Part shown: in pieces, positions 29,207 through 42,621 of the stretch
How the letters are laid out: every line of letters begins with the position of its first letter
Numbering within the stretch: the stretch's first letter is position 1
From: Candidatus Zixiibacteriota bacterium
GTDB taxonomy: Bacteria > Zixibacteria > MSB-5A5 > GN15 > FEB-12
Reading direction: 5' to 3'
Length of the DNA: 64,000 bases
Assembly: GCA_022571985.1 (NCBI GenBank)
Contig: JACZWU010000001.1
Location: 529,501-593,500, forward strand
Translations under genes and position numbers: made by a program
The notes under the pieces: model-generated
Told to the model about the DNA's origin: nothing
The model's input: the letters and a program-made list of their open reading frames with translations, nothing else
Databases searched by the model: none

Positions 29207-29551
29207 CTACATCGTAAAGAAGCGCTCGCCGCTGATTATCTTTTCAAGCATCCGCAGTGTTTTCTCAACCGGTGAATGCATCAAATCCGTTGTGTTAAAT
29301 GTTGTACGAATCACTTCGCGGGGAGCATCGGAGCCTTTACCGCGGCCAATCCGCGCCTTTTTCTTGTGCGTCAAATTATATTGACGCTGGTATTCTTTCG
29401 CCTTTTCCTTGTGCATCTGATAGTAGCGACGTTGATACTCCCGGCGCGCTTCGGCATTCGAGAGGTTTCCAGACACTACAATCTTGGGGGACTTCCTGGA
29501 CTCCTGGTTATCTACCGTTCCCACCGGTTCGGTTTGATCTTTACGAGTCAT
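29207..29551 (-). CDS. Small basic protein of unknown function
   Basis: I do not recognise this 114-residue protein. Residues about 35-66 hold two copies of a tyrosine- and lysine-rich motif (YQRRYYQMHKEKAKE, then YQRQYNLTHKKKA), likely one long helix. The N-terminal 30 residues look disordered, and the C-terminus PVEKTLRMLEKIISGE is helical. The net charge is positive, so nucleic acid binding is possible. A strong terminator follows it, which supports a real transcript. It stands alone between ppdK and the duplicated membrane module. Confidence 0.6.
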   Translation of the reverse strand: MTRKDQTEPVGTVDNQESRKSPKIVVSGNLSNAEARREYQRRYYQMHKEKAKEYQRQYNLTHKKKARIGRGKGSDAPREVIRTTFNTTDLMHSPVEKTLRMLEKIISGERFFTM

Positions 29552-30014: not shown

Positions 30015-30845
30015 TTAAGCTTGAGTGCTTTCGGGCTGAGACGGCTTGTCTTTGCTGTTCAGATATTTTTTGAACTCAAAGACAGCGTAGACTAAAAAGA
30101 TTAACCAGACCGCCCAGAACAGAGCCTGAAATCCGGCGTGGTAATTTTCATTGGCAGTACCAGAAGCATCGAAAGCCGCCTGCCCCCAGTTAATATCGAG
30201 AAATTGAATGCGGTTTATGAAAAGAGAAATTCGAGCCATAACAGTAAATCCAAAAGAGGCTCCAAAGCCGAGCATTAGCGTCCAGATACCAAATTTTGCA
30301 ACCGCTCCAAAAGCTCCGGTATGGGCTTTGGAGAAAAAGAAATAGACTAAAGCTGCAATCGTACCGACAAAAATTAACAATTCTGAATAGCCCGAGCCAA
30401 TATCTAAATACCTTTCACCCCAGAAACTGCTCCAGTTGATTGGCTCCATCATGGCCCAGAGCTGCCGGTTTACACGGTTGGCCATTTCCAGAGGGATAGC
30501 CAGTCCGGTCGAGATACCAATATACATGGCCAGCGGCCAGCGCGATATCCACGAGGATTTTTTGAAAAAACGAGCAAACATCATCACGCCCAGAATGAAA
30601 GGAACAAAATACCACCATTCTGAGGCGTTTAGCCATAGCAGATACCAGTCACCGTCGGCCAGTTTCTTGAAAAGATTCGGAACCAGCGCGCCATGCCAGA
30701 GAATTATTACAAAGTATCCGGCCGATACCCCGACGAACAGATGCTCTGCAAACTTGTACATAGGGTTGTCTTTATATAGAAACGAAAAGACAGCCAGAGT
30801 CAGAAAAGCTGCAAATGTTGTCCAGAGAAAAGTAGTGAATTCCAT
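30015..30845 (-). CDS. Membrane module subunit D, second copy
   Basis: The 276-residue protein has about six transmembrane segments. It is a paralogue of the protein at 34175-34819: both share FSFLYKDNP-YK, the LFVGVSA-Y block, VYFFFSK-H-GAFGA and the FGASFG-TVM-R-SL ending. This copy has a longer C-terminal tail (KKYLNSKDKPSQPESTQA). No known family is recognised. It is the last gene of the second A-B-C-D set, 10 nt after subunit C. It probably forms the membrane core of a complex with A-C. Confidence 0.72.
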   Translation of the reverse strand: MEFTTFLWTTFAAFLTLAVFSFLYKDNPMYKFAEHLFVGVSAGYFVIILWHGALVPNLFKKLADGDWYLLWLNASEWWYFVPFILGVMMFARFFKKSSWISRWPLAMYIGISTGLAIPLEMANRVNRQLWAMMEPINWSSFWGERYLDIGSGYSELLIFVGTIAALVYFFFSKAHTGAFGAVAKFGIWTLMLGFGASFGFTVMARISLFINRIQFLDINWGQAAFDASGTANENYHAGFQALFWAVWLIFLVYAVFEFKKYLNSKDKPSQPESTQA

Positions 30846-30855
30846 AATTTATTTC

Positions 30856-31725
30856 TTAAATTTTCCGTTCTCTATATCGAGTTACCAGATAGCCGACGTT
30901 ACCAATTATAATAAACAAAATTATCAAAAGGTGAGCCGGCAGCTGCACCCGCATACCGTCTTTGGCCAGACCGGGATTATCAGCCAGATGTTCATATTGA
31001 GCTGCTCCCAGCAGCCCGCCCATCAGACCCATTATCTGCTTTGATTGTAAGAAGGGATAATACTGAGCCGTCATAACTCCGGTCAGTCCCAGCGCCAGTG
31101 GGAAATCGAATTTCCCCTGACCGTAAGAAATCCAGGCATCGGTAATAGATCCGCTGGAGATATCTACGAGCAACGAAATATCATCATAGTTGTGGACCCT
31201 TTTCATCATCGGAATAGAATCCAGCGGTGTGCCATAATAATCACTTGGGAAAAGAATGCGATAGTCCTGACCCATGGCCGTTATGACGATGGCATAATAT
31301 GGCTTGTATCCCAGAAACGTGTAATCAACTCCGTTGACTATCTCTTTACCTTCATAGAATATGCCGTTATAAGTTTTGGGGAGCTTGAGCGAGTCGGTAA
31401 GGTCTCGTAAGGCCTGGTCAACCATACCCGGGCCATTCTGCGATAGCGCTGTGAAAATAACTTTTAGATCTTTGCGGAAAGCGTGTTCCACTAAAGCATA
31501 GGTCATGGGATGCAGTTCAGCCTGACTGGAGGGATCGTAGTCAACAGCCACGAAAATAATTTCACCCGGCTCTAATGCTTCGATAAAATCATAAATTGCT
31601 TTGGTTTCGTTTTCAACTATAGTCGGCACGGTAAAGTCGGCATAATAGGCTGACAGACAAACAATAACCAGCAGCAAATAAACCCAGCGACGATCAAGTT
31701 GCATTAGCTTACTAAAAAAATTCAT
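30856..31725 (-). CDS. Membrane module subunit C, second copy
   Basis: The 289-residue protein has one N-terminal transmembrane helix, a soluble domain of about 200 residues and a C-terminal helix (LLIILFIIIGNVGYLV). The soluble part alternates strands and helices: EIIFVAVDYDPSSQAELHPM, then ALVEHAFRKDLKVIFTAL and ITAMGQDYRILFP, and may be Rossmann-like. The paralogue at 34844-35758 shares FDYDPPSAPELQPM and the MG-EF--MFP motif. The conserved D-Y-D-P could be an active or ligand site. Function is unknown. Confidence 0.7.
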   Translation of the reverse strand: MNFFSKLMQLDRRWVYLLLVIVCLSAYYADFTVPTIVENETKAIYDFIEALEPGEIIFVAVDYDPSSQAELHPMTYALVEHAFRKDLKVIFTALSQNGPGMVDQALRDLTDSLKLPKTYNGIFYEGKEIVNGVDYTFLGYKPYYAIVITAMGQDYRILFPSDYYGTPLDSIPMMKRVHNYDDISLLVDISSGSITDAWISYGQGKFDFPLALGLTGVMTAQYYPFLQSKQIMGLMGGLLGAAQYEHLADNPGLAKDGMRVQLPAHLLIILFIIIGNVGYLVTRYRERKI

Positions 31726-31736
31726 AATCTTCCCTA

Positions 31737-32549
31737 TTATCCTTTACCCATATAGCCGCGCTCTATACCAAGAATCACTTTCAGTGCTGTAGCCACAATC
31801 CCTAAGCCAATACCGATTACAATTGCCCTCTGGGCGGCCAGGTTGGGCACATTCATTACCCAGGCCGAAGTTTTGGCCAGATATTCTCCCCAGGGACCGG
31901 GTGTGAATCTTAGCATGACGATCAGAGCCGCAATCAGCAGCAAAGTTGCCAGCAGGTTTCTGGCCCGAAAGGCCCGGTATGATGCCGAGGTGATAAAAAA
32001 GGCCAGTAAAGCAAACATGGTAGCTTGAAGGGGTATCATAATATAATCAAAAAAGTGGACAAACATTTGGTTGGTCAGGCCTTCAGCAGTATAGAATTTG
32101 AATTCCCAGGAGCTGTCAAAGATTGCCAGCAGTGAAAAAACAATCAAAAGACCGAGACCGCTTAATAACTTCATGTTTCTATTAGCCGCCTGGCCCATGA
32201 AGCCCTGCAGAAACATCCACAAAGCAATCAGGAAAACTGTTATCGCCAGAAAATAGCTCCAGAGCGAAGCGCCCTCGGTGATAGCAGTAAACCCAAAAAA
32301 CATCATCATTACCAGACTTGCCAGAGTAACCAGCGGATATTCCCAATTTTCTTTGCGGCTGTTAATTTTAGCTACAGAGACTTGAACTAATGACCAGAGC
32401 CCAAGCGCCAGCGCAAAAATTCCAATAATGACAATCCAGTCGAGCAAGAAGCCCTTGACAGTTTCAGAATTTTCGTGTGGTACGAAATACTGGATGACCA
32501 TCAGCGTGCCAAAAACAAAAACGAGTATGAGTGGTAACTGTCTTTTCAT
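31737..32549 (-). CDS. Membrane module subunit B, second copy
   Basis: This 270-residue integral membrane protein has six or seven helices. It pairs with the shorter paralogue at 35755-36435: both begin M(K/R)RQ-P---, have YF(V/I)PH and DW near helix 2, share SASYRAFRARN in the middle, and end QRAI-IGI-LGI-----ILGIER. The conserved arginine-rich loop SYRAFRARN probably faces the cytoplasm. It starts 12 nt after subunit A. No transporter signature was recognised. Confidence 0.72.
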   Translation of the reverse strand: MKRQLPLILVFVFGTLMVIQYFVPHENSETVKGFLLDWIVIIGIFALALGLWSLVQVSVAKINSRKENWEYPLVTLASLVMMMFFGFTAITEGASLWSYFLAITVFLIALWMFLQGFMGQAANRNMKLLSGLGLLIVFSLLAIFDSSWEFKFYTAEGLTNQMFVHFFDYIMIPLQATMFALLAFFITSASYRAFRARNLLATLLLIAALIVMLRFTPGPWGEYLAKTSAWVMNVPNLAAQRAIVIGIGLGIVATALKVILGIERGYMGKG

Positions 32550-32561
32550 AATTATTCCAGT

Positions 32562-34175
32562 TTAGTCAATAACCTCAAACCAGCTTTTAAACGTTTCACC
32601 ATATTCAGGGAAAATATTTATCAAAAGAATACCGATAATCGCGCTGGCCAGCAAGACCGCCTTGGCATAGTCCTGAGCTTTAAGAGAGCCTAATAATTCC
32701 GGTTCGCGCCCGAGATAAGCCGAGGCTGCAAACAGTTCTTCTCCAATTAAAGTGTAGTCACAGGCGACAAAGAAAAACGGAATCTGCGGGATTTCATCTG
32801 TTCCCGCTATCTGTATTGAGCCTGCGACTGCGCCGGTTTCGGCAAGTATCAGCGACTCAGCAAAAAACTTACCCATATATACGTTTGTAGCCGGCAGGTC
32901 ACGCATGATGATACCGTTAACCGCGCCTACATAAGCGAACTGGGAATTTGTTATGAAGTGTACTATGTCATCTTTATAGGCTTCGGGACGACCGGCATCA
33001 ATAAAGGCTGATTTGACAACTTCTTGTGCGACGGCCATTACAATCGGGTCGTAGCAGGGAACATTTAACTCAGTCTGATACTCAGCAACTTTTTTTGCTA
33101 CTCGTCCTAAAATTGTAAATGAGGCAATAGTAGCAATATCAGCAGCCGAGCCCAGTCCCAAGACGTACAGAATAGGCCTGCCCATTTCGGTAGCGCGACC
33201 GATTGCTTCATCGACAGCTTCGATTCCTGCCAGAGGCCGAACATATAAGTCCATTCCCTTTTTGGCGAGTTGTACAAAAATCATGGTAAGAATAGTAAAA
33301 ACTAAAATAGCGATAAGAACAGGTACCAAACCGCTATTAAACCACTGGCCAGAACTTTGCACCGGGCCGACGATTTCCGAAGTTGTTCTGATGTTCGGAT
33401 CACTTGTTTGTACATCAATTCTATAGTAGTAATCAATAAAGTCAGGTATGAAACCGGGTGATCGACTATCTACAGCACTGGAGTTTTCATGTGAAGTTAC
33501 TCCGGAGACTGCCGTACCCACGGAATCAAATCTTCCAATTGTCGCGTCAGGATACTTACCGTACTCTTTTGGGAGCAAGATAAGCAAACTGTCAAACCGG
33601 GCAGGAAGTAGTGGGGCACGAACCTTTAGAACTGGCAAGTCACGTTTCATAGCTGCTATAGTATCTCGCAGCGTTTTATCTACGTATTCCGAAGTTAAAA
33701 CAAAAGAAGTGTCTTTTTCGTCATATGCGACCAGGAAAGAAAGCGAATCCAGAAACGGTTGCCCTGTTAGTACTTCATCAAGTGATTCTTCAGCCAGAGG
33801 AATCTCTTTTTCGAACTTATTGATCCTTGCTTGCACCCAGCCGAGTGAGTCACGTGCAGCCATGACGCTGTCTCTGACAAACGGCTCCCAACGCATTATC
33901 TCATAGCTGATAACGCTCTTAGCGCCGGCGCCATCATCAGCCGAAAGCGTCCATTCGATGGTTATTGAATGGCCATGGTCGTTGTCGGTGTCAAAAGCTT
34001 TTAGGTCGGTTACCTGAGCGGGGGCAGCTATGGCCGGAATCGAATCAGCCGGAGTGTCAGTGTCGCTGTCTGTTTGTGCCAACAGAGAAGTCGAAAACGA
34101 AACCAATAGTAATGAGCATACTAAAACTAATAGCAGTACTCTTGATGCTTTCATTTTTTCCAAGTAGCTTCTCAT
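32562..34175 (-). CDS. Membrane module subunit A, second copy (FN3-like plus DUF6754-type domain)
   Basis: The 537-residue protein has an N-terminal signal sequence, a fibronectin type III-like region (VTDLKAFDTDNDHGHSITIE to SYEIMRWEP), then about 110 extra residues absent from its paralogue, a strand YYYRIDV closing the FN3 fold, and GPVQSSGQWFN. A transmembrane helix near 280 leads to a conserved domain with EAVDEAIGRATEMGRPI, MGKFFAESLILAETG and ACDYTLIGEELFAASAYLGRE. The C-terminus has another helix. I believe this domain is listed as DUF6754, with no known function. It is the first gene of the second set, its ATG sharing one base with the stop of D1. Confidence 0.75.
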   Translation of the reverse strand: MRSYLEKMKASRVLLLVLVCSLLLVSFSTSLLAQTDSDTDTPADSIPAIAAPAQVTDLKAFDTDNDHGHSITIEWTLSADDGAGAKSVISYEIMRWEPFVRDSVMAARDSLGWVQARINKFEKEIPLAEESLDEVLTGQPFLDSLSFLVAYDEKDTSFVLTSEYVDKTLRDTIAAMKRDLPVLKVRAPLLPARFDSLLILLPKEYGKYPDATIGRFDSVGTAVSGVTSHENSSAVDSRSPGFIPDFIDYYYRIDVQTSDPNIRTTSEIVGPVQSSGQWFNSGLVPVLIAILVFTILTMIFVQLAKKGMDLYVRPLAGIEAVDEAIGRATEMGRPILYVLGLGSAADIATIASFTILGRVAKKVAEYQTELNVPCYDPIVMAVAQEVVKSAFIDAGRPEAYKDDIVHFITNSQFAYVGAVNGIIMRDLPATNVYMGKFFAESLILAETGAVAGSIQIAGTDEIPQIPFFFVACDYTLIGEELFAASAYLGREPELLGSLKAQDYAKAVLLASAIIGILLINIFPEYGETFKSWFEVID

Positions 34176-34819
34176 TATCTTAAAATATGCAACCAGTCAC
34201 CCAGCAGAAAATCAACGCGTCCGATTAATAGCGACATCCGACTCATGACAGTGTAACCAAACGAGGCACCGAAAGTAACCATTAAAAACCAGGTGCCGAC
34301 TTTGGCCGTTGCCCCGAAAACTCCTTTGTGTTCTTTGGAAAAGAAAAAGTAAACAAGTCCTGAAAGAACACCAACCAGAATAACCAGAGTACCGAATGTT
34401 TCACCCCAGGCGATAAAGCCGGTGGCAGCATCGCGTACTATTATATTCGAAATAGTATTGCCGATTTGATTCATGGCGTTTGAAACAAAGTAGCCGACCA
34501 TCCACAGTCCGGCCGTAGCGCCGACAATAAGCGCCATCGGCCAACGGGAAACCCAGCCTATGTTCGGGATAAGCCTGGTCAGAAAGAGAAGACCAAGAAT
34601 CGCACCAATCCAGAGGAAGTAATCAGGTTCTTCGGCGGTAACTGCGCCTTCGTAGAATTTTTTATAAATGTTATCAAAATAAAATACAATCGCCCAGTAG
34701 GCAGCCGAAACACCGACGAACAAAGCCTCACAAGCCTTGTAAAGCGGATTGTCCTTATAGAGAAAGGAGAATATCCCCAGGGTCAAAATTGCCGCAATCC
34801 AGATACTTACTGTTTCCAT
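34175..34819 (-). CDS. Membrane module subunit D, first copy
   Basis: The 214-residue protein is predicted to span the membrane six times. It starts METVSIWIAAILTLGIFSFL and contains FLYKDNPLYKACEALFVG, then VYFFFSKEHKGVFGATAKVG and FGASFGYTVMSRMSLL, all shared with subunit D2. Its stop overlaps the start of A2 (TAATG), tying the two four-gene sets into one transcript. No known family is recognised. Confidence 0.73.
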   Translation of the reverse strand: METVSIWIAAILTLGIFSFLYKDNPLYKACEALFVGVSAAYWAIVFYFDNIYKKFYEGAVTAEEPDYFLWIGAILGLLFLTRLIPNIGWVSRWPMALIVGATAGLWMVGYFVSNAMNQIGNTISNIIVRDAATGFIAWGETFGTLVILVGVLSGLVYFFFSKEHKGVFGATAKVGTWFLMVTFGASFGYTVMSRMSLLIGRVDFLLGDWLHILR

Positions 34820-34843
34820 ACTATCTATACCACCCGGCTGTCA

Positions 34844-35758
34844 TTATGGTGTGCCTGCCATTTTCTTTTTTCTAGAACTGAAGTAGGCCAGATTTCCGAT
34901 AATTATAAATATGATTACTGTAGCGTGGGCAAAAGTCTGTGCCAGAAGAAAAGTGCTGGCTTTGCCTTTTTCGTCCAGGATTTTTTCAAATTCTGCGGCA
35001 CCGGTCATGCCGCCAAGAAGACCTTTTAGCTGTCCGGTGCGAAGATAGGGGTACATCATCGGCGCCTGCACGGCGGTATTGCCCGCTACCATATCGAATC
35101 CAAAGCGGTCAACTCCAAACTGTACCCATTCGGTAGTTCCGGGCTTGCCGGCGCTGAAATTAATTACAAAATCAACATTGCTGAAATTTACAACGTCCTG
35201 CAGCAGCGGAATATCTCCATAAGCAATATGCCGGTTATCTTTGGGAAACATCCGCTTAAATTCTGTCCCCATCGACTGAATAACAAACTCATTGCCGGAC
35301 TGAAAGCCAAGGTTGACCCAGTCTTCGCCCTGCACCAGATTTTTGCCTGCGATAATCGGGTCCAGCATTGCTTCTTCTATAGCCTGCTGAGCTTGCTGCG
35401 GACCCTGCGGCCATAGTCCCATAATTATAATTTTTAAATCTTTTTTGAAAGCGTATTTTAAGAATGCTACTGCCATTGGCTGCAGTTCCGGCGCCGAGGG
35501 CGGGTCATAATCAAAAGCACAGAGCACTTTGGAACCGGGCTGCAATTTTTCCAGCTGGTCATAAAGTTTTATAACATCTTTGGTGATAGGCAGCGGCAGC
35601 GTCTTATTCATCAGCAGCGGCAGGACGACAGCCAAGCCAATGTATATAAAGACAATTCTTCTTTCTACAGGATGTCCTTGAATCGTCCTGATCAATAAAT
35701 AGATTAGTGACAAGCCAACTATGGCGCTTAAAACCATGGCAATAGTACTTAACATCAA
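34844..35758 (-). CDS. Membrane module subunit C, first copy
   Basis: The 304-residue protein has two N-terminal helices, a soluble domain and a C-terminal helix (VIIFIIIGNLAYFS). The soluble domain starts LQPGSKVLCAFDYDPPSAPE and contains AFLKYAFKKDLKIIIMGLWP. It is the paralogue of C2. Its start overlaps the end of B1 by 4 nt (ATGA), which points to coupled translation and fixed stoichiometry. Function is unknown. Confidence 0.72.
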   Translation of the reverse strand: MMLSTIAMVLSAIVGLSLIYLLIRTIQGHPVERRIVFIYIGLAVVLPLLMNKTLPLPITKDVIKLYDQLEKLQPGSKVLCAFDYDPPSAPELQPMAVAFLKYAFKKDLKIIIMGLWPQGPQQAQQAIEEAMLDPIIAGKNLVQGEDWVNLGFQSGNEFVIQSMGTEFKRMFPKDNRHIAYGDIPLLQDVVNFSNVDFVINFSAGKPGTTEWVQFGVDRFGFDMVAGNTAVQAPMMYPYLRTGQLKGLLGGMTGAAEFEKILDEKGKASTFLLAQTFAHATVIIFIIIGNLAYFSSRKKKMAGTP

Positions 35759-36435
35759 CCGCTCCCTCCGCCGATATGAGAGCGCTCTATGCCCAGAATA
35801 ATTCTAAGCGAGCTGGACATTATACCAAGTGCGATGCCTATCATGATGGCACGCTGTCCGGCGGTGTTGGGGTAGGTCATTATCCAGTCGGCGAACCAGC
35901 TAAAGACAGGAAAATCAGTTATTGGAGAAATCATCATATCAAAAAGCGGAACTCTGCCACCCATCACGAAAAAGCCTGCTATCAGGAGTAAAGTCGCCTG
36001 CACATTACGGGCGCGGAAAGCACGGTATGAGGCCGAGGCCACGAAAAAGGCCAGCATCGAAAACATTGTCGCCGAAAGCGGCGTGTATATAAAACGATAG
36101 AGCCAGTCAAAATTTGTGCCCGGGTCACGGAAAGATACCTGCGGGTCCTGCGCCATGCCGGAGTAGCCATCGTAAAAGCCGATTGCCAGAGTTCCCATGA
36201 GTGAGACTACGATGATAGCAGCATAAGGCCAGTCGGCGGTTTTATTGCTGATTTTTTCAAATGAAATCTTAAGCAGATTAAGCGCTCCCAGCCAGACCGC
36301 AAAGGCCTGTACGATTGTAATCCAGTCGCCAAAGATTGATTCCGATTCCCCGAAGGGGTCATGGGGAATAAAATAACTGATTGCAAAGACCAGGCCTGCA
36401 ATAGTCGTAATTAATATTGGAATCTGTCTTCTCAT
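35755..36435 (-). CDS. Membrane module subunit B, first copy
   Basis: The 226-residue protein has about six transmembrane helices and starts MRRQIPILITTIAGLVFA. It shares SASYRAFRARN and the QRAIMIGIALGI ending with B2 but is about 44 residues shorter, mostly between helices 3 and 4. It lies 36 nt after A1. No recognised family. Confidence 0.73.
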   Translation of the reverse strand: MRRQIPILITTIAGLVFAISYFIPHDPFGESESIFGDWITIVQAFAVWLGALNLLKISFEKISNKTADWPYAAIIVVSLMGTLAIGFYDGYSGMAQDPQVSFRDPGTNFDWLYRFIYTPLSATMFSMLAFFVASASYRAFRARNVQATLLLIAGFFVMGGRVPLFDMMISPITDFPVFSWFADWIMTYPNTAGQRAIMIGIALGIMSSSLRIILGIERSHIGGGSG

Positions 36436-36471
36436 TTATGTTTCTATATTTCCGTTATTCCTGTTTTATCT

Positions 36472-37737
36472 CTATCGCGAAACAAAAATAACGCTCATGT
36501 CCCAGATATTAAGAGTTGCCAAAATGACGCCAACAATAATGCACAAAATAAACAGCCCCTTGCCCATGTCCTGTCCCTTGAGCGATCCCAACTGACGCGG
36601 TTCACGGGACAGATAGGCCGAGGCCGCAAATAATTCTTCACCGATGAGAGTGTAATCGCAGGCCGCTACAAAGAACGGCAGCTGGGCCGGCATGGCCGTG
36701 CCTGCAATTTGAATGGCGCCGACAGAGTTACCGGTTTCTGCCAAAATGAGAGATTCGGCAAAAAATGCCCCCATGTAAAAAATCGTAGCCGGTTTTTCAC
36801 GTACAATCATACCGTCGATTGCGGCGGCATAGCCAAACTGGTCATCGGTCAGATAATGTACCTGTGAATCCTGAAGTGCATCCGGGCGGCCAACTTTGGT
36901 GTAAGCTTCTTTCATCGCTTCACGGGCAGTCACCAATACCATCGATTTAGAAACCGGCACTTCCAGCCAGGTATCGTATTCGGCGGCCATCTGGGCTACA
37001 CGTCCAAGTATGGCGATGGAGGCTATCGTTTGCACATCGTTCATATCCTGAATACCGGGAATGTAGAAAATCTTTTTACCCATTTCGGTCGCACGGCCGA
37101 CTGCTTCATCGACAGCGTCAATACCGGCGATTTTACGAATGTATATTTCATCCCCTTTTTTGGCCTTTTCGATATAAAACATAATTGCTCCGGCCACAAA
37201 GAGCAGAAACAAGAGCACGTACAGGCGATTCATGTTAAACCATTGAGCAGATGATTGCACCGGGCCGGTCACAGTAGCTGCTGATGTTATCCGGACTTTT
37301 TCACCGGCAGCATCGAGATATTCTAAATAGGCCTCTACTTTATAGAAATAAATTTTGTCGTCATTAGTTTTATTGTCAGTAAATTTTGTGGCGCCACGGA
37401 CGGCCTTACCGGCTGTTTCAAAAGGGCCGTCTTTGGATTCTGAACGTTGAACCAGATAGCCGGATACTTTGCCGTTACCGTCGTCGTCAGGAGACAATTC
37501 CCAACTGATAAAAACTGCCCCGCCATTATCATTGGGCAGGTCTATCGCCTTTATATTAGAAGCAGGAAGTGGAGCTATATTGACTGAGTCTGCGGCTTGT
37601 TCGGGAGCGGCAGCGGTATCAACAGCTGTTTCTGCATCCTGTGCTGTCGAAACATTTAAACTGATTAATAAAAGAGATAGCGTGAATAAGGCGATTTTCA
37701 AGCAATTATGAGTCAGATTTGGAGAAGATAACCGCAA
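36472..37737 (-). CDS. Membrane module subunit A, first copy (FN3-like plus DUF6754-type domain)
   Basis: The 421-residue protein carries a signal peptide, then a single FN3-like domain (SNIKAIDLPNDNGGAVFISW to FYKVEAYLEYLD), GPVQSSAQWFN, one transmembrane helix near 175, and the conserved domain with IDAVDEAVGRATEMGKKIFY, FFAESLILAETG and ACDYTLIGEELFAASAYLSR. A last helix closes the protein. It is the compact version of A2. As the first gene of the eight, it should lie next to the operon promoter, in the spacer 37738-37855. An FN3 domain outside the cytoplasm suggests binding to a surface partner. Confidence 0.75.
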   Translation of the reverse strand: MRLSSPNLTHNCLKIALFTLSLLLISLNVSTAQDAETAVDTAAAPEQAADSVNIAPLPASNIKAIDLPNDNGGAVFISWELSPDDDGNGKVSGYLVQRSESKDGPFETAGKAVRGATKFTDNKTNDDKIYFYKVEAYLEYLDAAGEKVRITSAATVTGPVQSSAQWFNMNRLYVLLFLLFVAGAIMFYIEKAKKGDEIYIRKIAGIDAVDEAVGRATEMGKKIFYIPGIQDMNDVQTIASIAILGRVAQMAAEYDTWLEVPVSKSMVLVTAREAMKEAYTKVGRPDALQDSQVHYLTDDQFGYAAAIDGMIVREKPATIFYMGAFFAESLILAETGNSVGAIQIAGTAMPAQLPFFVAACDYTLIGEELFAASAYLSREPRQLGSLKGQDMGKGLFILCIIVGVILATLNIWDMSVIFVSR

Positions 37738-38104: not shown

Positions 38105-38398
38105 CTATCGAATCAAGAGTGTCGTGATGTCTTTTCCTTCAATCATAACATCACAAATTAATTGCCCGTTGGTAGTAGTTGTCGGATTCCTAAGTTCGAC
38201 GTTTTTGCCTCGAATGATCTCAGATAAATCATTCATAGCTTCTTGAAATCCGGTTTGCCCTATTTTGGGGCCAGTATACCCGTTGATCTTGATAGTATCG
38301 CCTTCTTCTTTGTCTGTTGACTGCCAATGAGGTGCGACTCTGAAAGTTTCAGCGTCAATTACCTCCGTCACGGTAACTCTGGTTTTTGTAAGTTCCAT
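38105..38398 (-). CDS. Small SNase-like (staphylococcal nuclease fold) protein
   Basis: The 97-residue protein follows the order of the SNase OB-fold: VTEVIDAETFRV, then DTIKINGYTGPKIGQTGF (family: V-L-GIDAPE-G), LSEIIRGKNVEL and ICDVMIEGKDITTLLI. The catalytic Arg and Glu residues of active nucleases are not evident and the protein lacks the last helix region, so it is probably a binding module. A good ribosome-binding site (AGGAGGCT) stands before the ATG at 38398. The neighbours give no clue. Confidence 0.6.
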   Translation of the reverse strand: MELTKTRVTVTEVIDAETFRVAPHWQSTDKEEGDTIKINGYTGPKIGQTGFQEAMNDLSEIIRGKNVELRNPTTTTNGQLICDVMIEGKDITTLLIR

Positions 38399-38890
38399 GC
38401 GTAGCCTCCTTGTTTTTTATAAGGGATTGCCACGGCACTTCACCACCTTAGTTGTCTTAGGGACTATCCCTAATTCATTTACATATATCAGATTCTGGAT
38501 TTTGAAGTCAATATAAAAGACTTGTGACTCAATTCACCTGGCTTGGTCAAACCCGATTGTGGTATCCGAAACCCTATTGAAAACACCCCCAAAATGGAAA
38601 CGCTCATCCTTTATGGGGGTGAGCGTTCAGTTCAGAGATGCCAACTCAAAGGTGTAACATACTGTAACGTACTACAGATATCGGAGTTTACTTTCAATTT
38701 CTTTAATTGTTAAGAGTGTTGAAACTGCACCACTACCGAAATATATCCACCTATTAAAATCACTTCAAATTAGGACACAGCTCTTACCGCGGGCGCTTTA
38801 CAAGACGGGCAAGTTGTGTTATATAAGTCGTCTTTGGTTGAAATGGCGGGTTTAGCCTGCTTTTGAATATAATATTAGAGAAAGAGATTG
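38399..38890. other. Intergenic region with overlapping hairpins
   Basis: No gene is seen in about 490 bp. At 38584-38627 two stems compete: CACCCCC (38584) with GGGGGTG (38615), and AACGCTCA (38599) with TGAGCGTT (38620). The two use overlapping bases. It could be a terminator or a leader switch, but no T-run follows. The promoter for the MutL operon must be to its right. Confidence 0.45.
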
Positions 38891-40735
38891 ATGGCAAAGT
38901 TCGATAAACCTGAAGATATCAAAGTAATTGTAGCTACCGACTGCGGCTCCACTACCACCAAAGCTATATTAATAGAATTCACCAATGGTGAGTACCGCTT
39001 AGTTTCACGCGGCGAGGCACCTACTACCGTAGAAGCGCCATTTGAAGACGTTACCATGGGAGTACTAAACGCCGTGGCTGAGCTGGAAGAATTAACCGGC
39101 CGTAAGATTCTGGACGAAAACAGCAAATTCATCTCTCCTGCCAATGGCAAGACCGGCACAGATGTGTACATATCGACATCTTCAGCCGGAGGCGGGCTGC
39201 AGATGATGGTTGCCGGAGTTGTCCGGTCGATGACTGCCGAATCTGCCGAGCGGGCAGCATTGGGAGCCGGAGCAATCGTAATGGATGTGATAGCCTCAAA
39301 CGATAAACGGCTGCCGCATCAGCAGATAGAACGCATCAGGCATCTCAGGCCTGATATGATTTTACTCTCAGGCGGTATCGACGGCGGTACTACCACTCAC
39401 GTAGTAGAACTGGCTGAGCTTATAGCGGCTGCGGATCCACGTCCCAGACTGGGTTCGTCATATCAGCTTCCGGTTATTTACGCCGGCAATAAAGATGCAG
39501 CAGAGGCAGTCGCCGAAGTTCTCAAAGATAAAGTCGATTTGAAGACTGTGGATAATCTAAGGCCTGTTTTAGAAAGAGAAAATCTCGGACCGGCCCGTGA
39601 AGAAATTCATGAGCTTTTTATGGAGCACGTTATGGCTCAGGCACCGGGTTACAAAAAGCTGATGTCCTGGACCGACGCTCCCATCATGCCGACGCCGGGT
39701 GCGGTCGGACTTATTATTCAGACTATCGCCGACCAGTATAATATCGAAGCAATTGGTGTGGATATAGGCGGCGCCACCACCGATGTCTTCTCGGTCTTTC
39801 GTCCCGAAGGGGGCAAGCCGGTTTTCAACCGCACAGTCTCTGCGAACTTAGGCATGTCGTATTCGATTTCTAATGTTTTTGCCGAAGCAACGGTGCCGAT
39901 GGTTATGCGCTGGGTGCCCTTTGAAATGGATGAGCGCGATTTGCGCAACCGTGTCAAAAACAAAATGGTTCGTCCGACTACCATACCGCAGTCACTCGAA
40001 GAACTTATTTTCGAACAAGCGATTGCTAAAGAAGCTCTCAGACTGGCTTTTATCCAGCACAAAAGTTTTGCAACTACCCTAAAAGGCGTACAGCAGCAAA
40101 GAACAATTGCAGACGCCTTTGACCAGAAATCTTCGGGCGATTCGATCGTCAATATGCTGTCGCTGGATATGTTAATTGGTTCCGGCGGTGTGCTTTCGCA
40201 CGCGCCCCGCAGACAGCAGGCTGCTTTTATGATGATTGACGCTTTCCTGCCGGAGGGTATCACCCGGCTGGCAGTAGATTCAATTTTTATGATGCCGCAG
40301 CTGGGAGTTTTAGCAGAAGTTCAGCCTAAGGCTGCTACCGAAGTATTTGATAAAGACTGCCTGATTCATCTGGGCACCTGCATTTGCCCCTCGGGGAAAA
40401 GTAAAAAGGGCGGCCCGGTCATGAAATACAGTATTGAGCTGCCTGATGGCACCAAAAGCGGTACTTTAAATCATCTGGAAATGAAAAAATTTGAGTTAGG
40501 CCTTGGCGACGACGGCCTGCCGCTGAAAGCCAAGGCAGTATTAGAACCGGAAAAACATTTTGACCTTGGAGCCGGCAAAGGTGCAAAAGTCCAAGTTGAA
40601 CTAAACGGCGGCGTAGTCGGCATTATTCTTGATGGTCGCGGTCGGCCGTTTGACCTTTCTACACTGGCTGAAAAAGAAAGAGTCTCGTACTTAAAAGAGT
40701 GGATGAAGGAACTCGATATCTACCCCGGGATGTAA
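38891..40735 (+). CDS. MutL-family actin-fold ATPase (glutamate mutase MutL/GlmL type)
   Basis: The 614-residue protein has the ASKHA phosphate motif VIVATDCGSTTTKAILIEF at its start, a second IGVDIGGATTDVFSVF near residue 290, and LLSGGIDGGTTTHV. These belong to the MutL family found with glutamate mutase and other cobalamin mutases, not the DNA mismatch-repair protein. The ATG at 38891 is preferred over a TTG just before it. No mutase subunit is near. The next two genes are close-packed with it and unknown, so it likely acts in a different, unnamed pathway. Confidence 0.82.
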   Translation: MAKFDKPEDIKVIVATDCGSTTTKAILIEFTNGEYRLVSRGEAPTTVEAPFEDVTMGVLNAVAELEELTGRKILDENSKFISPANGKTGTDVYISTSSAGGGLQMMVAGVVRSMTAESAERAALGAGAIVMDVIASNDKRLPHQQIERIRHLRPDMILLSGGIDGGTTTHVVELAELIAAADPRPRLGSSYQLPVIYAGNKDAAEAVAEVLKDKVDLKTVDNLRPVLERENLGPAREEIHELFMEHVMAQAPGYKKLMSWTDAPIMPTPGAVGLIIQTIADQYNIEAIGVDIGGATTDVFSVFRPEGGKPVFNRTVSANLGMSYSISNVFAEATVPMVMRWVPFEMDERDLRNRVKNKMVRPTTIPQSLEELIFEQAIAKEALRLAFIQHKSFATTLKGVQQQRTIADAFDQKSSGDSIVNMLSLDMLIGSGGVLSHAPRRQQAAFMMIDAFLPEGITRLAVDSIFMMPQLGVLAEVQPKAATEVFDKDCLIHLGTCICPSGKSKKGGPVMKYSIELPDGTKSGTLNHLEMKKFELGLGDDGLPLKAKAVLEPEKHFDLGAGKGAKVQVELNGGVVGIILDGRGRPFDLSTLAEKERVSYLKEWMKELDIYPGM

Positions 40736-40737
40736 AT

Positions 40738-41469
40738 ATGAAAAAAATTGTCATTGCAATCTTGTTTTTGGCGTCGGTAAATCTATCCGCCGAAACATAT
40801 GTAAGTTTTAAAGGCGGCTTTTATTTTGAATATCCCGAAAACTGGATTCAAATTGATTTTAATACCGCCGACCTGTTTTTAAGCCGCTCGGCCACAGACA
40901 TTTCTTCAATGGAGTACGAAGCAGTGTTCGCCCCGGCTGAATCTTCACCATTTTTTGCCGGCGAATATCTTATTCTAAAACTCGACACTTTTGAATGGCT
41001 CTATGAATATAAAGAAGACTCTATTGTTGAAGCGGTTGAGGCAAATCTCGGCCAGAAACTTCTGAGAACATCAGCCTGGGACCAGCTGGCGGATACTAAC
41101 TCAATGGTTCCGGTTTATGACACAGAAAATAAGATAATTTTCATTCAGAGCGACCTTACTCAAGGCATTGAAATTATTAAGCGCAGCGTTTTTATTAAAA
41201 AGATGTACGATAAAGGTGTGGCCGAATTTTACTTTTTTGCTCAGCATGAAACTTTTGAATCGAGCAAGGAAGTTATCAAGAATATCGTCAGCTCATTTTC
41301 AACAGAAAACGTTGAGGAGGCTCTGCCGACCGAAGAATTAAAAGTCGCCGACTTAGATGACGACACGGATTTTTCCAGCACCATCATGATTACCGCAGCA
41401 GCTGCGTTACTGATTATTATTGCCATAATAGTGCGCATGAAAATGGCTGCCGGAAGAAAAGAAGAATAA
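40738..41469 (+). CDS. Membrane-anchored protein of unknown function, MutL neighbour
   Basis: The 243-residue protein has a signal peptide (MKKIVIAILFLASVNLSA), an extracytoplasmic domain starting TYVSFKGGFYFEYPENWIQI, and a C-terminal membrane helix (TIMITAAAALLIIIAIIVRM) with a short basic tail. The domain recalls PsbP/YfkJ-like folds (an early F-YP-NW) but I am not sure. It starts 2 nt after the MutL stop, so the two are co-expressed. Confidence 0.7.
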   Translation: MKKIVIAILFLASVNLSAETYVSFKGGFYFEYPENWIQIDFNTADLFLSRSATDISSMEYEAVFAPAESSPFFAGEYLILKLDTFEWLYEYKEDSIVEAVEANLGQKLLRTSAWDQLADTNSMVPVYDTENKIIFIQSDLTQGIEIIKRSVFIKKMYDKGVAEFYFFAQHETFESSKEVIKNIVSSFSTENVEEALPTEELKVADLDDDTDFSSTIMITAAAALLIIIAIIVRMKMAAGRKEE

Positions 41470-41496: not shown

Positions 41497-42621
41497 TTGG
41501 GTCACGCCTATACACCAGGTTTAAAAGTAACCAGTAATTATCTTATCAAGAAAGACCGAATCCTGCCGCTTAAGGGCGAAGTCAAAGTCAAAGTTGGCGA
41601 CAAAGTCCAGCCCGATGATGTCGTCGCTGAAACGCATCTGCCGGGCAACGTGGTGCCTTTAAACGTGGCCAATATTCTGGGGCTGCCTCCGGAAGATCTG
41701 GAAATGGCCATGACCAAGAAAGAGGGCGAAGCCATAACCGAAGGGGAGCAGATAGCGCTTAAGACTTCTTTTATAAAGTTTTTTAACAAAGCCTGCAACG
41801 CTACCATCGATGGTACCATAGAATCAATTTCACACATTACCGGTCAGGTATTGCAGCGGGGCAAACCTAATCCTGTTCAGGTCAGAGCATATTTGAGTGG
41901 TGAGGTTGTTGAGGTCTTTCCGGGAGAAGGTGTGGTGGTGGCCTGTCATGGTGCTTTTGTTCAGGGCATATTTGGTATTGGCGGTGAGACCTACGGCAAT
42001 CTGCGAATTGCAGTTTCAGATAACTCTGCCGTCTTGACCGATGATTTAATTACAGATGATATGGCCGGGCAGGTTATTGTCGGTGGCTCGCTGGTGACCG
42101 CTTCTGCTCTCGAAAAAGCAATTAAGGTAAAGGCTAAAGGAATCGTCGTCGGCGGCTTTGATGATAAAGATTTACGCGACTTTTTGGGTTACGATATTGG
42201 TGTAGCCATTACCGGCTCTGAAGATAAAGGCATAACTCTGGTTGTTTCCGAAGGCTTTGGAAAAATCGATATGGCCGGTAAAACTTTTGACCTCTTAAAA
42301 AGTCACGAAGGTCAGATGGCCTGTATCAACGGCGCTACTCAGATCAGAGCCGGAGTGATACGCCCCGAAGTTGTCATCCCCCGTGCCGAGCAGGGTCATG
42401 TTGAGGTTACAGGTCCTACCGAAGTTATGGGACTTGCCATAGGCTCGCCAATTCGCGTCATACGCCATCCTTATTTTGGCAGACTTGGCCAGGTAACAGA
42501 CCTGCCGTCACCGCTACACACGCTGGAATCAGAATCCAAAGCACGCGTTTTGGAAGTTGAGTTCGAAGACGGCACCAAAGCTATCGTCCCCAGAGCCAAT
42601 GTCGAAATGATTGAAGATTAG
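41497..42621 (+). CDS. Conserved protein of unknown function with lipoyl-like start and KOW-like end
   Basis: The 374-residue protein opens at a TTG with AGAGG about 9 nt upstream. Residues 20-60 (GEVKVKVGDKVQPDDVVAET) resemble a biotinyl/lipoyl barrel without the modified lysine, and it repeats in SGEVVEVFPGEGVVV. The middle has IVGGSLVTASALEKAIKVKA and VVGGFDDKDLRDFLGYDIGV. The end (HPYFGRLGQVTDLPS, VLEVEFEDG) looks like a KOW-type SH3 barrel. It closes the MutL operon, and a terminator follows. Function is unknown. Confidence 0.72.
   Translation: MGHAYTPGLKVTSNYLIKKDRILPLKGEVKVKVGDKVQPDDVVAETHLPGNVVPLNVANILGLPPEDLEMAMTKKEGEAITEGEQIALKTSFIKFFNKACNATIDGTIESISHITGQVLQRGKPNPVQVRAYLSGEVVEVFPGEGVVVACHGAFVQGIFGIGGETYGNLRIAVSDNSAVLTDDLITDDMAGQVIVGGSLVTASALEKAIKVKAKGIVVGGFDDKDLRDFLGYDIGVAITGSEDKGITLVVSEGFGKIDMAGKTFDLLKSHEGQMACINGATQIRAGVIRPEVVIPRAEQGHVEVTGPTEVMGLAIGSPIRVIRHPYFGRLGQVTDLPSPLHTLESESKARVLEVEFEDGTKAIVPRANVEMIED

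Follow-up and report, generated by a model that had tools for sequence, protein, structure and literature searches.

A conserved four-gene membrane module and its putative MutL-type ATPase partner in Zixibacteria and other phyla: a possible new class of envelope machine

What do eight consecutive membrane-protein genes of a Zixibacteria genome encode, and why do they spell the same series of four genes twice? The question is raised by a stretch of 64,000 nucleotides from Candidatus Zixiibacteriota bacterium (assembly GCA_022571985.1, contig JACZWU010000001.1, positions 529,501 to 593,500), hereafter the window. On its minus strand, between positions 30015 and 37737, eight contiguous genes are arranged as A1-B1-C1-D1-A2-B2-C2-D2, each open reading frame (ORF) lying where a first-pass annotation of the sequence had put it. 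We propose, at somewhat less than even confidence, that A to D and two nearby genes, M and E, encode an inner-membrane complex that is driven or gated by a shared ATPase unit and exists in several specialised versions. The intergenic spacing within the array, from −1 to about 36 bases, is consistent with the single transcript already suggested. Conversely, the ATGA overlap reported between B1 and C1 is not there: the junction reads TTGATG, which makes the ATG at 35755, sharing one base with the B1 stop codon, the most likely start of C1. The starts given by the ORF finder for A1 and C1 are both TTG (35758 for C1), and both are uncertain.

The two modules had been described as a tandem duplication. 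Their paralogy is clear, with pairwise identities between copies of 45% for A, 41% for B, 32% for C and 40% for D, but the trees do not place the duplication in this lineage. The host genome (2.93 Mb, 17 contigs) contains four ABCD sets in total, the other two, also complete, lying outside this array (L010:8609-11617 and L011:11903-8839), and related genomes frequently have three sets in a row, ABCDABCDABCD, or the beginning of such an array. In FastTree phylogenies of A, B, C, and D, the copies cluster by array position across the phylum and not by genome. The position labels require 6, 5, 4, and 4 parsimony changes, respectively, compared with 20–26, 16–25, 11–17, and 7–16 in 40 label shuffles; such labels can shift on truncated contigs, and the few exceptions expected were seen. 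The first module of the window groups with position 1, and the second with position 3, in the phylogenies of A, B, and C. For D, labelled position-3 copies are few, and the labelled copy nearest to the second module is again one of these. The two copies in the window are thus not each other's closest relatives. According to these position-specific clades, they represent types 1 and 3 among three ancient paralogue types that go back to an ancestral triple array and are found throughout the phylum, the middle type being absent from the array of the window.

Subunit A is the only one of the four with a named domain. A1 (36472..37737, minus strand, type 1) and A2 (32562..34175, minus strand, type 3 by its tree) are clear members of Pfam DUF6754 (PF20539), matching the whole domain with scores of 407 and 375 bits where the cut-off is 27 (E 2.6e-122 and 2.6e-112). 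This family is a single uncharacterised domain and does not cover B, C, D, M, or E. The first-pass annotation had missed it, as it had the adjacent partner genes M, P, and E. It had found no assigned function for the module, in agreement with our literature searches, which gave nothing on DUF6754 or on PF13941, the family of M. A1 is predicted to consist of a signal peptide, an FN3 domain outside the membrane, a transmembrane (TM) segment, the cytoplasmic DUF6754 domain and a second TM segment. Its AlphaFold model, with a predicted local distance difference test (pLDDT) score of 90, shows an N-terminal helix, FN3, a TM helix at residues 169–193, an alpha/beta domain, and a helix with a TM part at 380–408; the positive-inside charge profile puts the DUF6754 domain on the inside. 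The FN3 domain, already proposed for A, is confirmed by the match of the outer part to titin (profile E 2e-26; Foldseek E 6e-6). Among the Foldseek matches listed for A, almost all concern this part, and the DUF6754 fold is thus unplaced. A2 has a longer outside region followed by the same TM-DUF6754-TM arrangement, and shares one base with the D1 stop.

Among homologues, A varies greatly in its outer part, from no FN3 at all (as in L010:8609-9484) to more than 800 residues ahead of DUF6754. The cytoplasmic domain is strongly conserved; its invariant residues include R215, E218, E328, Q343, D361, E367, and E368, and there is one near-invariant cysteine, C360 (97% of its column). In A proteins of about 935–1108 residues (L105:5652-8504, L106:8024-10831 and L113:2-3328), the regions preceding DUF6754 match almost nothing in Pfam.

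The other three subunits gave no convincing match to Pfam, NCBIfam, or PDB families, and their profiles had no PDB match even at E 10. From 63 to 71 homologues of each, scanned singly, yielded scattered weak matches, the commonest being TMD0_ABC (8 of 71 B proteins, best E 2e-6), which we treated as generic TM similarity. By charge bias, B is predicted to have about six TM segments with both ends inside; B1 (35755..36435, minus strand) follows this pattern, and B2 (31737..32549, minus strand, type 3) has about eight hydrophobic segments. D1 (34175..34819, minus strand) and D2 (30015..30845, minus strand, type 3 by its tree) also have about six predicted TM segments, starting outside. C1 (34844..35755, minus strand) and C2 (30856..31725, minus strand, type 3) are each predicted to hold a Rossmann-like domain outside the membrane between two TM segments. 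Structures were modelled for two single chains, A1 and C2. The C2 model (pLDDT 96.4, predicted template modelling score 0.91) supports the soluble Rossmann-like domain previously suggested for C, framed by a TM segment at 12–28 and a TM helix at 253–288. With this model, Foldseek found nothing below E 1e-3, and the template modelling scores among the matches listed did not exceed 0.35. The last TM helix of C carries invariant H265 and N276 and near-invariant Q261, and D has invariant D23, N24, E31, R92, H164, and R194. Together with invariant polar residues at strand ends of A, these positions suggest ligand or ion handling. Cysteines are far less conserved, the best columns reaching 8% in B, 37% in D, and 49% in C. 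In the models of A and C, helices and strands follow one another in a matching order between the two TM helices. Profile-profile comparison nevertheless gave nothing (probability 5%), and we do not claim homology between A and C; none was found between B and D either.

The module is widespread. We found DUF6754 in all 132 Zixibacteria genomes, mostly in four to six copies, and, in samples of other phyla, in 74 of 80 WOR-3, 41 of 149 Planctomycetota, and 3 of 119 Acidobacteriota genomes; none of 14 control genomes had it. ABCD loci were also identified in Fermentibacterota, Latescibacterota, Cloacimonadota, Coatesbacteria, Eisenbacteria, Stahlbacteria, Gemmatimonadota, Calditrichota, Marinimicrobia (Fidelibacterota), and one myxococcal contig; the four-gene module occurs in at least ten phyla besides Zixibacteria. 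We use the taxon names of public records, in which some labels of metagenome-assembled genomes may be wrong, such as that of L073 (Caldithrix abyssi). Over the loci of more than ten phyla, same-strand neighbours are AB 115 times, BC 99 times, CD 92 times, and DA 43 times, compared with 5 for all other pairings, an order far beyond chance, and the genes overlap or nearly abut across phyla. No homologue among known transporters or secretion systems was found, and the module copies co-occur, both in keeping with the earlier reading of the array. The conserved order and close spacing of the genes suggest that A to D probably form a physical complex.

Divergent from A1, the window carries three plus-strand genes. 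M (38888..40735) encodes a predicted ATPase of the MutL family, with the ASKHA (actin) fold. It matches PF13941 from profile position 1 to 450 of 450 (E 1.6e-131, 440 bits) and contains the motifs DCGSTTTK and DIGGATTD; the phosphate motifs DxGSTTTK and DIGGATTD are retained in 29–30 of 30 homologues. It scores below the NCBIfam equivalog cut-offs for GlmL (244 vs. 475 bits) and Or-4 (231 vs. 600 bits). P (40699..41469), a Zixibacteria-type extra gene between M and E, encodes a predicted secreted or membrane-anchored protein whose position is syntenic in eight loci and whose only match is a weak one to PsbP (E 0.008). E (41497..42621) encodes a predicted soluble protein composed of a barrel-sandwich part resembling RnfC_N and Biotin_lipoyl and a C-terminal KOW-like part. 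Among 24 E homologues, 10 match Biotin_lipoyl, 9 match RnfC_N (over the domain only, best E 1.2e-6), 3 match KOW, and 2 match NQRA_N; the E protein of the window itself does not reach an RnfC_N match, and no lipoyl or biotin lysine motif was seen in the alignment. A 97-residue minus-strand ORF between A1 and M (38105-38398) matches no family above cut-off.

M and E are the strongest recurrent neighbours of ABCD. The two genes precede the module on its own strand in Fermentibacterota and Planctomycetota, as (Y)-(S)-M-E-A-B-C-D. M-E-A-B-C-D is also collinear in some Zixibacteria, several others having M-P-E divergent from A1 as in the window. Fragments from Latescibacterota and Acidobacteriota have E immediately ahead of ABCD, and in a Marinimicrobia (Fidelibacterota) locus (L088) M and E are fused into a single protein of 1006 residues. 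M or E is present upstream in 24 of the 46 loci with at least 4 kb of upstream DNA. Co-occurrence extends beyond linkage. With a profile built from loci near ABCD, E was detected in 123 of 132 Zixibacteria genomes (77 of the 78 good ones), in 75 of 80 sampled WOR-3 genomes, even where unlinked to ABCD, and, in other phyla, in each of the 17 additional ABCD genomes that were sampled. In Planctomycetota, it is present in 36 of 41 genomes with A versus 2 of 108 without (Fisher 1e-26, a value that overstates independence since the genomes are related); the pattern recurs in separate phyla. We therefore regard M and E, with good confidence, as partners of ABCD. Two loci, L038 and L040, have full triple arrays directly behind E. 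Standalone genes of about 930–980 codons that fuse M-like and E-like parts (L121:7965-10808, L122:8006-10825, L123:7563-10358, L125, L127, and L128) are distant paralogues away from ABCD and may show another use of the ATPase unit.

How might these proteins work together? E is mostly single copy whereas ABCD is multi-copy, and the usual occurrence of one M/E with several ABCD types in a genome suggests a common engine serving specialised membrane parts. A to D would be the four subunits of one inner-membrane complex with B and D as the membrane core. A would present its alpha/beta domain, often with an FN3 domain on the other side, to the cytoplasm, and C its Rossmann-like domain to the outside. 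E would be a barrel-sandwich adaptor docking M onto the A domains, and M/E, once bound there, would couple ATP to a conformational cycle. Such an ATP-dependent machine would move or assemble something across or in the cell envelope, with types 1, 2, 3, and others as specialised versions using the common M/E. We consider the chances of ATP coupling evenly balanced, the ATPase activity being predicted from motifs alone, and put forward a role in envelope transport or assembly as a tentative idea.

Several observations weigh against this proposal. Of the 46 ABCD loci with sufficient upstream sequence, 22 have neither M nor E nearby. E is absent altogether from five planctomycete genomes that contain DUF6754, and may thus be dispensable or, in incomplete genomes, have escaped detection. 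Apart from M and E, the flanking genes differ between phyla and give no clue to a substrate or pathway. Finally, the MutL-family ATPases of known role are considered chaperone-like reactivases rather than motors of a membrane complex.

This last point leads to the main rival, which we judge unlikely yet worth weighing: M/E would be a reactivase or assembly chaperone, ABCD a membrane enzyme or cofactor-dependent complex kept active by it, and ATP would be spent on maintenance. GlmL is thought to be such a reactivase or assembly chaperone of glutamate mutase. M shares with the GlmL/MutL family the full MutL domain and its nucleotide-binding motifs, the named proteins closest to it are the accessory proteins GlmL and Or-4, and one M/E serving several ABCD copies would suit a maintenance role, as would the alpha/beta or Rossmann-like domains of A and C with their invariant polar residues. 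However, M is longer (about 600 vs. 460 residues) and is linked or fused to E and linked to a membrane module, where a GlmL or Or-4 protein would be expected beside the subunits of a B12-dependent mutase. The direct neighbours of M, P and E, are not such subunits, and none turned up among the genes of the cluster. ABCD has no cofactor motif, and C360 of A is its single near-invariant cysteine.

Alternatively, the complex might be a sensory or structural scaffold of the envelope, the outside FN3 and Rossmann-like domains binding a ligand or the cell wall and A signalling to M/E, whose actin-like ATPase would form or direct an intracellular structure. The contrast between the variable outer part of A and its conserved cytoplasmic domain fits this scenario, as do the actin fold of M and the DUF4388 and further small uncharacterised genes that follow the module in WOR-3 and Stahlbacteria. 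PilM/PilN/PilO and FtsA are systems that pair an actin-like ATPase with a membrane complex and likewise place it on the cytoplasmic face of the envelope. Nevertheless, M belongs to the MutL family and not with FtsA, PilM, or MreB, the membrane subunits are not homologous, and two multi-TM subunits with invariant charged residues exceed what a scaffold needs. We consider this scenario improbable.

An ion-translocating complex resembling Rnf or Nqr is quite doubtful. E would then be the RnfC/NqrA-like peripheral subunit, B and D the pair of six-TM proteins in opposite orientation, and C an outside domain. The recurrent but weak RnfC_N and NQRA_N matches in E, the N-in and N-out charge bias of B and D, the invariant histidine in the second TM helix of C, and the charged residues of D point in this direction. 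On the other hand, barrel-sandwich folds are common, no B or D member matches an Rnf-Nqr membrane family in Pfam, the module lacks a conserved cysteine set and hence a visible electron path, and an ATPase partner such as M has no counterpart in these pumps. Finally, an antiphage defence or other accessory island spread by tandem duplication, to which multi-copy membrane genes of an unfamiliar kind might point, is hardly credible, as none of 10 proteins has a PADLOC match at E 0.01, and the module is present in every Zixibacteria genome searched and shows ancient positional orthology.

Other genes recur around ABCD. Just downstream of the array, the window encodes a small basic protein (29207-29551, minus strand) with repeated EYQRxY or KEKAKEYQRQY-type stretches and no Pfam match, kept at this place in several Zixibacteria. 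The module of WOR-3 and Stahlbacteria has a conserved series of genes behind it, encoding first a DUF4388 protein, next a pair of uncharacterised soluble proteins (one resembling roadblock by eye) and a pair of small membrane proteins; ExbB/ExbD/TonB-like genes come after these (L048:11165-14010 and matching places in L052, L056, L057, L060, and L072). We did not retain the ExbB/ExbD/TonB-like neighbours (10–15 loci), which are common genes lying kilobases away. In Fermentibacterota/Aegiribacteria, a protein resembling a TonB receptor by eye, with a carboxypeptidase-regulatory-like start, begins about 180–320 bases past D (L066, L068-L070, L076, and L086).

Taken singly, A is a named domain and M belongs to a named family, while no known system of described function has the membrane subunits of this one. 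Returning to the envelope complex with a shared ATPase, we tentatively suggest, a little short of an even chance, that ABCD and M/E represent a new class of ATP-powered envelope machine, in which an actin-fold MutL-type ATPase would be the engine common to specialised complexes. Such a class would be core to Zixibacteria and WOR-3 and scattered in Planctomycetota, Fermentibacterota, Latescibacterota, and others. Zixibacteria do not appear in the main text of a catalogue of novel protein families from uncultivated lineages (PMC10849945). A gene set present in every searched genome of one phylum and nearly all of another is close to a core cell function, yet no described family accounts for B, C, or D, three of the four subunits. 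The module looks like a basic and so far unstudied part of the envelope of these cells. It also connects a membrane complex with an uncharacterised branch of the MutL/GlmL ATPases, for which the usual reading is reactivation of mutases. As some single-contig planctomycete genomes contain one simple copy, a cultured organism might serve to test the function of the module.

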